Source: Geobacter sp. (GTDB lineage Bacteria > Desulfobacterota > Desulfuromonadia > Geobacterales > Geobacteraceae). From it: DNA of 64,000 bases. The notes below the pieces were generated by a model, which saw only the letters and a program-made list of their open reading frames with translations, did no database searches and was not told where the DNA came from. Every line of letters begins with the position of its first letter. Position 1 is the stretch's first letter. Where the stretch lies: positions 496,001 through 560,000 of the forward strand of contig PJFC01000001.1 of the NCBI GenBank assembly GCA_003574885.1. The letters run 5' to 3'. A program made the translations under genes and the position numbers. Of this stretch, positions 39,848-42,268 are shown piece after piece.

Positions 39848-40252
39848 ATGCTTGAAAAAATAAATCATATCGGCATTGCGGTCCGATCTCTCGATGAGGC
39901 GATCCCTTTTTACCGGGACAGCCTTGGCATGAGCCTCGAAGGGATCGAAGTGGTGGCCGAGCAGAAGGTGCGGGTTGCTTTTTTCCAGATAGGGGAATCG
40001 AAGATTGAACTCCTGGAGCCGACGGGGGACGACAGTCCTATTGCCGGGTTTCTGGCTAGGAGCGGTCCGGGAATCCACCATGTCGCCTACGAAGTTGAGG
40101 ACATTGAGGCCTCCATCGGAAAGATCATGCAGGATGGTGCCCGCATGATCGATGCCGTCCCCCGTAATGGTGCCCACGGCACTCGGATTGCCTTCATTCA
40201 TCCCAAGAGCAGTAACGGTGTTCTTACCGAACTCTGTCAGAATGTCCACTGA
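39848..40252 (+). CDS. mce: Methylmalonyl-CoA epimerase
   Basis: The product is 134 aa from ATG 39848, which has GGAG 6 bases upstream. It is a glyoxalase/VOC-fold protein with metal ligands in INHIGIAV, IELLEP, GPGIHHVAYEV and the final TELCQ. It converts S- to R-methylmalonyl-CoA and links the carboxylase to the mutase. It lies 74 bases after the mutase gene and is the last gene of the likely operon. Confidence 0.93.
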   Translation: MLEKINHIGIAVRSLDEAIPFYRDSLGMSLEGIEVVAEQKVRVAFFQIGESKIELLEPTGDDSPIAGFLARSGPGIHHVAYEVEDIEASIGKIMQDGARMIDAVPRNGAHGTRIAFIHPKSSNGVLTELCQNVH

Positions 40253-40343: not shown

Positions 40344-40370
40344 TTGACTTTGGTTCGAGATAATTATAGT
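40344..40370 (+). promoter_or_regulatory. Sigma-70-type promoter of the structured leader
   Basis: TTGACT at 40344-40349, with -10 candidates TATAGT (40365-40370, 15-base spacer) or TAGTGT (17-base spacer). The surroundings are AT-rich. Transcription would start near 40377, just before the hairpin-rich stretch. Confidence 0.6.
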
Positions 40371-40567
40371 GTTTCATAAATTTTAAAACATTGTTTGCGT
40401 GATTATGTTATATGTAGCAAACAGTTGGGCAAAGATCTGCTGGTTTGGCTTTTTCACTGATAGCCGAGGGAGTCTGGCCAGGCTCAGGCTCCGCTGGTCG
40501 CTTCCAACTGTTGACATCCGGCAGTCAATGGGTTATGTTAACCCAGCTTCATCGGGCAAGGATAATA

Positions 40568-40675
40568 ATGAACCTTACACGCATGAACACAAGCCAACAG
40601 AAGTGCAACGGGAAGACCAATGTCTTGCGTCCTGCAGGACGACATTGTTCAGAGCCCTGTTTCGTCTACCCGTGA
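40568..40675 (+). CDS. Candidate 35-codon leader peptide
   Basis: ATG 40568 has AAGGA 5 bases upstream, a proper ribosome site. The 35-residue product starts MNLTRMNTSQQKC and ends CFVYP, with three cysteines, no signal peptide and a basic character. The stop TGA (40673-40675) falls in the loop of the terminator hairpin at 40653-40705, so ribosomes reaching it would disrupt the left arm. That geometry is what an attenuator would need. It may also be a chance frame: no homology is known to me. Confidence 0.35.
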   Translation: MNLTRMNTSQQKCNGKTNVLRPAGRHCSEPCFVYP

Positions 40676-40705
40676 TGTCGGGGAGCGGAGCGGGGCTTTT
40701 CTTTT
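40653..40705 (+). terminator. Terminator or attenuator of the structured leader
   Basis: AGCCCTG (40653-40659) pairs with CGGGGCT (40691-40697), with an inner CCCG/CGGG stem, followed by TTTTCTTTT. It lies 139 bases before the porin start. Confidence 0.65.
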
Positions 40706-40843
40706 GGAGGGGGATTTTAACGTACCCGAGTATTTCGGCACTCTCTTGTGAAAGGTGGTGATACCCCTAAGGATTTAAGCAGTAGGCTGCAGAATGTGAT
40801 TGATTTTATTTTGATTCCTAATCAACAACGAAGGAGGTAACAG

Positions 40844-42268
40844 ATGAGCATGAAAAAGAGACTTTTGGCTGTCGCCGCAGTATCGGCCCTGACTGTCGCA
40901 ACGGCGGTGCCTGCGCTGGCGCTGGATAACGAGTTCCACGGCCTGTTCCGGGTGCGGGGGATCATCGACAATTTCAACGATGGCGCCGGCGGCCCAGTTG
41001 GGCTGAAAAACAATCCCGGGACCAGAAGTTACATCGAGCAGCGGGCCCGCCTCATGTACATCGCCAAGGCAAACGATGACCTGAAGCTGGTGACCCACTT
41101 CGAATTCGACTCCCGCTGGGGCGACAACTCCTACGGTTCCAACGGTAGCACAAGAAACAACGGCGGCGGCATTGGCGCTGACCAGACCAACCTGGAAACC
41201 AAGAACATCTACCTGGACTTCAACATCCCCTCAACACCGGTGAATGTTAAACTCGGTATCCAGGGGTTCGACGACGGCTACAAAGGGATCATATCCAGCA
41301 CCGACGCCGCCGGCCTGGTAGCCAAAGCCAAGATGAGCTTCGGCTCCCTCGGCGGGGCCTATTTCCGGTTTGATGACGCTGTCACTGGCACTGGTGCAGC
41401 TGCTACTGCAACGGCACCTGCTAGCTATACCAACAGTTACGTTGGTGTGCCGGCATCTTCTACCACCGCAGGCAGCGTGATCCAGAATTCAACCCCCGGT
41501 TACCTGACCCGCGATCTGGTAAACCTGAATGCCAAGGTCAATGTTACCAAAGACGTGAAGGTGGGCGTTGACTATTACCTCCTCTACAGCGACGTGCTGC
41601 GCCAGACACAGAACCGCGCTAACATCCACATGGCAGGTATCAACGCCGAGGCCAAAGTCGGTCCGGCAACCGTCGACGGCTTCGTCCTCTATCAGACCGG
41701 TAGACTCGGGTCAGCCATTGGAACTGATTCACAGAAGGTCAGCGCCTTTGCAGCCAATGTGGGTGCCAAAGTGAAGGCCGGTCCCGGGACCCTGCGCGCC
41801 AATGCCCTCTATATCTCCGGCAACAGGGATAATGGGACGAGCACCCGTAACGACTTTCAGACGATCTTGGAGCGGGGTGCTACCACCCCCGGCCATGCCT
41901 TCTATGCAAGCGAGATGCAGATCATGCTCCGCAACAAGTACAACATGAGCTCCGACCGGGCGGTCGTGTTCGACCTGAATAACGGTAGCCAGGGCCTCCT
42001 TGGTGGTTTCGTCGGCTATGACCTGGCCATCGACAAGTTCTTCATGAACAGCAATCTTGGTGCGGCAGCCGTTGCCAGGAGCGCAAGGGCAGGAAGCGAC
42101 TACCTCGGTACCGAGCTTAACACCGAGATCGGCTACAAGATGTACGACAACCTGACCACGTCCGTGCAGGCCGGTTACATGCTGCTGGGCCAATACTACA
42201 AGCCTGCCAATGGCTCCTGGGCGGAGAACCCCTACACCGCCAAGCTGCAGGTTAACTACACCTTCTAA
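40844..42268 (+). CDS. Outer-membrane porin-like beta-barrel protein
   Basis: The product is 474 aa with a signal peptide (about 1-27, cleavage near ALA-LDN). The mature chain has alternating polar/aromatic strands, many Gly/Asn/Thr-rich loops, and ends LQVNYTF, the barrel C-terminal signal. It resembles the OmpJ-type major porins of Geobacter, which influence cytochrome content of the outer membrane; that is a resemblance, not an alignment. AAGGAGG lies 6 bases upstream of ATG. The gene is preceded by a structured leader and followed by a strong terminator, so it is a single-gene unit. Confidence 0.85.
   Translation: MSMKKRLLAVAAVSALTVATAVPALALDNEFHGLFRVRGIIDNFNDGAGGPVGLKNNPGTRSYIEQRARLMYIAKANDDLKLVTHFEFDSRWGDNSYGSNGSTRNNGGGIGADQTNLETKNIYLDFNIPSTPVNVKLGIQGFDDGYKGIISSTDAAGLVAKAKMSFGSLGGAYFRFDDAVTGTGAAATATAPASYTNSYVGVPASSTTAGSVIQNSTPGYLTRDLVNLNAKVNVTKDVKVGVDYYLLYSDVLRQTQNRANIHMAGINAEAKVGPATVDGFVLYQTGRLGSAIGTDSQKVSAFAANVGAKVKAGPGTLRANALYISGNRDNGTSTRNDFQTILERGATTPGHAFYASEMQIMLRNKYNMSSDRAVVFDLNNGSQGLLGGFVGYDLAIDKFFMNSNLGAAAVARSARAGSDYLGTELNTEIGYKMYDNLTTSVQAGYMLLGQYYKPANGSWAENPYTAKLQVNYTF

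Follow-up and report, generated by a model that had tools for sequence, protein, structure and literature searches.

The DNA analysed here, a window of 64,000 nucleotides from a Geobacter sp. contig (PJFC01000001.1), raises the question of what is done by a long leader that precedes the gene of an outer-membrane porin. The leader lies between a methylmalonyl-CoA epimerase gene, which ends the upstream unit (39848-40252, + strand; TIGR03081, 170 bits, cut-off 114.95), and a gene for an OmpJ-type outer-membrane porin of 474 amino acids (40844-42268, + strand; Alginate_exp PF13372, 28.2 bits, cut-off 25.2), whose Shine-Dalgarno sequence AAGGAGG can be read at 40831-40837 (+ strand). In a profile search the porin scored 91.1 bits against NF033939, below the cut-off of 250, and one published OmpJ peptide is matched at 13 of its 16 residues, the remaining seven peptides being matched less well. 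OmpJ of G. sulfurreducens has been described as required for metal reduction (PMC1186022), and ompJ is listed with values of -1.68 and -1.52 in a csrA-deletion transcriptome of this species (PMC11934962). The epimerase protein as a query identified 41 places in 38 of 48 genomes of the family, 40 of which were read (30 loci and 10 that were fetched). An OmpJ-like porin follows the epimerase in 34 of these 40 loci and was not seen after it in L054, L060, L063, L084, L085, and L086, some of which are at contig ends. Two members of the genus also carry porin paralogues (L020, L032) which, by eye, lie directly after an ABC-transporter-like gene and are without this leader.

The first-pass annotation could match the leader to no riboswitch or housekeeping RNA consensus, and the Rfam search of the window agrees, returning two tRNAs only. 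With E values up to 10 the leader itself gave four sub-threshold matches, none of them credible, and 14 related loci gave one sub-threshold match. The 6S RNA (RF00013) was considered and rejected, with no match at the leader and three matches over the cut-off elsewhere in the genome. The occurrence of three 6S matches over the Rfam cut-off in a single genome (L013, L014, and L015, outside the window) is a separate observation. The peptide encoded within the leader (described below) has no NCBIfam or Pfam match. Among the 48 family genomes the four genomes of the genus match it well and nothing outside the genus is better than E 0.0074; four non-genus matches range from E 0.0074 to 0.083, and three of the four have an internal stop. 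No description of the leader was found in Rfam, in the main texts of comparative RNA and uORF surveys, or in the Geobacter literature searched. The main text of one article names the Geobacter motifs yjbM and nifV and contains no 'porin' (PMC11109978), and that of another contains neither 'Geobacter' nor 'porin' (PMC2965389).

Two promoters can be recognized within the leader. Promoter P1 (40344-40370, + strand), with TTGACT at 40344-40349 as the -35 and TATAGT at 40365-40370 as the -10 element, had been proposed from the sequence and is present in the window as well as conserved in the genus alignment and in family leaders. Its spacer measures 15 nt in the window and 16 nt in three genus relatives, and P1 is absent from the promoter-scan listing because that scan allows spacers of 16-18 nt. 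In a broad pattern it is found in 33 of 34 family leaders, missing only in L059. The beginning of the P1 transcript (TTTCATAAATTTTAAAACA...GTTTG; 40371-40397, + strand) forms a near-invariant block in the genus alignment. Judged by eye, a box like its TTTTAGAACA reappears in further families of the order, and 40371-40397 and the spacer between -35 and -10 (TTTGTTTG) are apparently conserved beyond the family. Perhaps this transcript start and spacer constitute a regulator site. Promoter P2 (TTGACA-17-TATGTT; 40511-40539, + strand) emerged from the promoter scan, the genus alignment, and a family script. Its -10 element reads TATGTT in the window and TATATT in three genus relatives, and of the 34 family leaders 11 have a P2: the script detected it in 10, and the promoter scan in the window. 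Between the terminator and the porin a narrow promoter pattern found no match in 28 of 33 leaders, and a broader scan of the window found no + strand promoter in 40706-40843. In five Geomonas-type leaders (L061, L068, L069, L079, L081) a TTGACT-15-TATAGT arrangement overlaps the 3' arm and tail of the terminator, which may be chance or a third promoter.

The leader is present in all four genomes of the genus, and their alignment (the window, SKS4.bin43, AOG1, and Geomobilimonas luticola) resolves into three zones. Hardly any change is seen in P1 and the ~25 bases with which its transcript begins, 40398-40503 has diverged, and the region from ~40505 to the porin start is highly conserved and comprises, in order, P2, the leader ORF, the terminator, and a box, GAAAGGTGGTGAT, with complementarity to 16S rRNA. 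Neither P2, nor this box, nor the conservation throughout the family figured in the first-pass annotation. The dense secondary structure that it reported is borne out, as the fold of 40377-40707 was equalled by none of 100 dinucleotide shuffles (z -3.25). It had further described two mutually exclusive stems, which are present in the window (6/6 and 9/9 pairs) but are not kept in relatives. At aligned columns the three relatives retain 4, 4, and 2 of the 6 pairs of the first stem and 7, 5, and 4 of the 9 pairs of the second. Genus alignment and pair counts place most of both stems in the non-conserved spacer 40398-40503 (+ strand), the least conserved part of the leader, and in the window the terminator is not involved in them. 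The sequence CAACTGTTG with upstream bases forms looser, shifted pairings in each relative (6-9 pairs), and the second stem is therefore called unproven rather than absent. As a functional switch the competing stems are not supported, given their decay at aligned columns in the genus relatives; such a switch is probably fortuitous. A conserved antiterminator competing with the terminator was not found by alifold in 18 Geomonas-type leaders, where the common fold is part of the terminator only; the 14 closest of these also show weak upstream helices. The genus fold is drawn from four sequences, too few to judge.

Within the conserved zone lies the leader ORF, 35 codons in length (MNLTRMNTSQQKCNGKTNVLRPAGRHCSEPCFVYP; 40568-40675, + strand), with an AAGGA Shine-Dalgarno sequence read at 40558-40562 (+ strand) and a TGA stop at 40673-40675 inside the terminator hairpin. 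The frame, its ribosome site, and the placement of its stop had all been noted from the window, and start, ribosome site, and stop are kept in 4/4 genus genomes, the single length change being 3 nt. In the genus pN/pS is 0.47 in frame and 1.45 and 0.91 in the other two frames, and variable columns are spread evenly over the codon positions (8, 9, 10). These data fit a frame that is translated under weak peptide constraint. Members of the window genus share a C-terminus with cysteines, C.EPCF, whose conservation may be explained by the terminator arm, which encodes it. The peptide differs between genera. The longest run of a single residue is 3 in 33 ORFs and 2 in the window, and no run is common to all. 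Most of these ORFs comprise 14-39 codons, with only 4 codons in two distant leaders, and a start motif defined after seeing the leaders, GGTG[GTC][CT][AC]ATG, is found in 10 of them.

The terminator had likewise been recognized at the outset, and consists of a hairpin of -29.1 kcal/mol (40653-40697, + strand) followed by the U-rich tail TTTCTTTT (40698-40705, + strand), although a simple terminator scan lacked this hairpin and listed another site at 40508. A terminator is found in 33 of 34 family leaders, with none in L082 and with those of L046 and L083 named from the sequence by eye. In 14 Geomonas-type leaders the terminator helix covaries, with 94.2% of cells paired and 10 of 20 pairs changed on both sides; shuffles scored as high in 0 of 500 cases on four of five measures and in 13 of 500 on the fifth.

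In the window the ORF stop codon begins at base 21 of the hairpin. For a blind choice of ORF, the start codons of every leader were ranked by their pairing with 16S rRNA, with a penalty of 1 kcal/mol for GTG or TTG, and the top one was taken wherever its stop lay. The stop then fell between 15 nt before the hairpin and the hairpin end in 30 of 33 leaders, against 10.3 expected when the part of the leader that precedes the hairpin is dinucleotide-shuffled, a count that overstates the evidence because the leaders are related to each other. The misses are L049, L050, and L051, and L059 succeeds via an ORF other than the one later kept. Counted by genus, with one hand-averaged value for each and genus g7 (3 of 4) taken as a success, placement holds in 7 of 9 against 2.2 expected (P about 5e-4). 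When the start motif is used where present, 27 of the 33 leaders have their stop inside the hairpin, 5 have it 11-13 nt before the hairpin, and 1 has it past the hairpin. If a ribosome at the stop covered 12 further bases, the residual hairpin would be of -6.8 kcal/mol or weaker in the 27 leaders with an inside stop, whereas the hairpin would be nearly untouched in the 5 with a stop before it. The hairpin starts 24-97 nt after the ORF start. Within this interval no obvious U-rich pause tract was found by a crude test of T runs, the longest of which measures 2-4 nt in the 14 leaders counted and 2 nt in the window.

Beyond the terminator a pattern search identified an extended Shine-Dalgarno-like box, GAAAGGTGGTGAT (40750-40762, + strand), 94 nt before the porin start. 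No start codon lies at the usual distance after it, and the porin has its own normal ribosome site besides. The box differs by one base from the genomic stretch L076, which we take to be the complement of the 16S 3' end, and the longer box pattern occurs five times in the window's genome (the leader, the presumed 16S rRNA end, and three others). The form GAAAGGNGGTG is found 75-96 nt before the porin start in 14 of the 33 family leaders with a terminator: it is present in 14/14 leaders outside the Geomonas-type set and L053, and in 0/19 of the others (18 Geomonas-type leaders and L053). Duplexes of box and 16S range from -17.9 to -21.8 kcal/mol. Directly after the terminator is a purine box, GGAGGGGG (40706-40713, + strand), detected by script in 9 of 33 leaders. 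The genome also encodes a TIGR00649 protein (626.9 bits, cut-off 400), presumably a member of the RNase J family.

These features lead us to favor, at somewhat better than even confidence, the reading of the OmpJ-type porin leader as a translation-coupled transcription attenuator. In its working principle it is best read as resembling E. coli pyrBI, without being a pyrBI member, and porin synthesis would probably be coupled to how closely ribosomes trail RNA polymerase in the leader. From what is read directly, namely the sequence, its conservation, and the position of the stop relative to the hairpin, we infer how transcription terminates or reads through, the direction of control, the signal that it answers, and what the box does. 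RNA polymerase would start at P1, and in this genus and some others also at P2, transcribe the short ORF, and meet a terminator, the 5' arm of which is formed by the last part of this ORF. A close ribosome, positioned on the stop within the hairpin, would keep the 5' arm unpaired and allow read-through into the porin gene. If translation were late or not initiated, the hairpin would form and a short RNA would be released. Since the position of the stop is conserved and the peptide is not, the signal is probably not a single amino acid but a general one, perhaps ribosome availability or the relative speed of ribosome and polymerase. In the read-through mRNA the 16S-complementary box would probably hold a 30S subunit far from the start codon, which could stabilize or prime an abundant porin mRNA in the manner of a STAB-SD.

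Work in E. coli provides a measure for this geometry. A ribosome at a stop codon near an intrinsic terminator represses termination; moving the stop from 28 to 5 nt upstream lowers efficiency from ~90% to <10%, and full termination is reported only when the stop is more than ~27 nt away (PMC4824070). In pyrL the advancing ribosome inhibits termination (PMC5021804). By analogy, the window fits the geometry of the stop-near-terminator tests. In the same E. coli work, terminators lying less than 100 bp into a coding region are described as effective unless polymerase pauses, the ribosome not having caught up (PMC4824070), and the hairpins at 24-97 nt after the ORF start, within this <100 bp range, count against an attenuator. 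The weak coding constraint of the window-genus ORF and the lack of a terminator in L082 count against it as well, as do the three misses of the blind choice and the 4-codon ORFs of two distant leaders. Since the hairpin follows so soon after the ORF start, termination may be the default, with read-through requiring pausing or fast initiation. In the five leaders whose stop lies 11-13 nt before the hairpin, the coverage model predicts marginal blocking. The proposal of a cis attenuator with a leader peptide before the porin, put forward in the first-pass annotation, stands in altered form: the overlap of ORF and terminator is kept through the family, but the two-stem switch is not. If the reading is true, the attenuator would link metal respiration to translation state, a regulatory layer new to the literature searched, and the leaders would provide a compact natural series for the effect of stop-to-terminator distance on read-through.

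The porin query finds matches in 103 of 141 genomes of the order, and 32 upstream regions were chosen for reading, in 31 of which the porin start was found. The box is exact in 13 of these 31, one of which, L107, belongs to the same family as the window, and families f3 and f4 again show terminators together with P1-like promoters. In f3 a GGTGTCAATG start scores best in L092, where the stop precedes the hairpin by 10 nt, and in L118, where it does so by 15 nt; in L091 a variant start ranks second, with a stop 7 nt before the hairpin. In the sister family f4 the stops of the best-scoring frames are scattered between 46 nt upstream and 70 nt downstream of the hairpin start, and so the ORF rule fails there. 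Seven f4 leaders have in common a long element between promoter and hairpin. It is a conserved aptamer-like RNA (CUGAAACAAACGAACC...GUAGCUAACCGAUU...CCGGGAGCGAAACACACUGUGAACGUUUCAG) that precedes the terminator-like hairpin in leaders of OmpJ-like porins (L120-L166, e.g., L120:1501-1714). Model R1, built from these seven leaders, finds 47 genomes among the 141 of the order and likewise 47 among the 277 of the class, with one match in each, all within f4 and across 6 genera; the seven source genomes are among the 47, and 40 are new. Downstream of R1 the exact box is found in 45 of 47 and a looser form in 2, and the porin start was found in 38. A structure was derived from a MAFFT alignment of the 47 with alifold, the apical helix being placed by best pairing. 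It has 93.9% of cells paired and 17 of 32 pairs changed on both sides, with 0 of 500 shuffles as high on all five measures; its derivation from the same sequences, however, tilts the comparison with slid controls in its favor. Covariation resides nearly entirely in the apical helix (5/5 pairs) and the terminator-like helix (11/13). In the core, the long-range helices vary so little (97-98% paired) that the alignment speaks neither for nor against them. Length changes of a single base directly behind the conserved CUGUG argue against a reading frame at that place. The f4 element had no Rfam match at E 0.1 in the seven leaders scanned, its novelty being judged against Rfam, and we read it as a riboswitch candidate. 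A tentative view, which we hold at rather less than even confidence, is that the porin mRNA has kept its promoter type, terminator-like hairpin, and 16S box throughout the order (with exceptions; the box is missing in 19 of 33 window-family leaders) while the sensing part was exchanged. In the window's family this part would be an ORF that stops in the terminator; in f4 it would be a new riboswitch-like RNA of ~120 nt whose core hardly varies, present a single time in each of 47 genomes among the 141. If true, a major porin of metal-respiring bacteria would be under premature termination in both families, with translation read in one and a ligand in the other. The f4 element would be a concrete riboswitch candidate with a known downstream gene, and is a stronger novel lead than the window leader.

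Several other explanations of the window leader have to be weighed. It might specify an independent short transcript, from P1 or P2 to the terminator, that acts as a trans sRNA or small mRNA, with the porin transcribed from another start or by incidental read-through. P2 just before the ORF, the high conservation from P2 to the terminator in the genus, and the strength of the terminator would all suit such a transcript. However, a search of 48 family genomes for the peptide gave nothing outside the genus better than E 0.0074, both ORF and RNA sequence vary between genera whereas the position before the porin is constant, and no promoter is seen between terminator and porin either in 28 of 33 leaders (narrow pattern) or in the window (broader scan). 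We regard this explanation as unlikely. The independent sRNA offered by the first-pass annotation as its second option also loses ground, as blastn at E 0.01 matches genus members only among the loci compared and adjacency to the porin is kept in 34 of 40.

Attenuation specific for a peptide or codon, in which the ribosome would stall within the ORF in response to a single amino acid, to a small molecule, or to the peptide being made, is somewhat less probable still. The combination of leader ORF and terminator is compatible with it, as are the C.EPCF kept in the genus and the pN/pS of 0.47, but C.EPCF is encoded by the terminator arm, no residue run exceeds 3 in 33 ORFs or is common to them, and the common fold of the 18 Geomonas-type leaders is only part of the terminator, with weak upstream helices in 14. 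A leader that senses a ligand or protein as an RNA switch, the ORF being incidental, appears very improbable. The fold z of -3.25, the weak upstream helices of the 14 closest Geomonas-type leaders, and the conserved structured RNA in the leader of the matching porin in f4 argue for it; yet alifold keeps only part of the terminator in the 18 Geomonas-type leaders, the 47 R1 matches are all in f4 with none in f1 (strict filters), and the named stems decay.

Among known systems the translation-coupled attenuator proposed here is most readily compared to pyrBI, in whose leader (pyrL) a translated ORF also runs into an intrinsic terminator and a close ribosome blocks the hairpin (PMC5021804, PMC4824070). 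Unlike pyrBI, the gene controlled is that of a porin and not pyrimidine genes, there is no obvious U-rich pause tract before the hairpin by the crude T-run count, and the ORF, which has no more than 4 codons in the shortest cases, usually has its stop within the hairpin. In the growth-rate attenuator of E. coli ampC a ribosome at a very short leader frame beside the terminator tunes expression. The shortest frames here resemble that of ampC, whereas most are 14-39 codons in length and end inside the hairpin. An amino-acid leader-peptide attenuator of the trp, his, or ilv type is not supported, a run of codons for the regulated amino acid being absent, the longest identical run being 3 in 33 ORFs. 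The ilvB and fthC uORF motifs, likewise obtained by comparative search, share with the porin leader a conserved ORF with a terminator (PMC11109978). The ilvB motif is described with enrichment of Ile, Leu, and Val codons and an antiterminator (PMC11109978), whereas the 33 ORFs here have no such enrichment. The 16S-complementary box has its closest counterpart in the STAB-SD of the Bacillus thuringiensis cry3A 5' UTR, a non-initiating Shine-Dalgarno-like sequence able to pair with 16S rRNA, at which the 30S subunit blocks RNase J1 (PMC4113751). Both are complementary to 16S rRNA and lie in a 5' UTR away from the start codon, and a TIGR00649 gene is present in the window's genome; the porin box differs in matching up to 13 bases of 16S with one mismatch, in its location behind a proposed attenuator, and in belonging to a different phylum.
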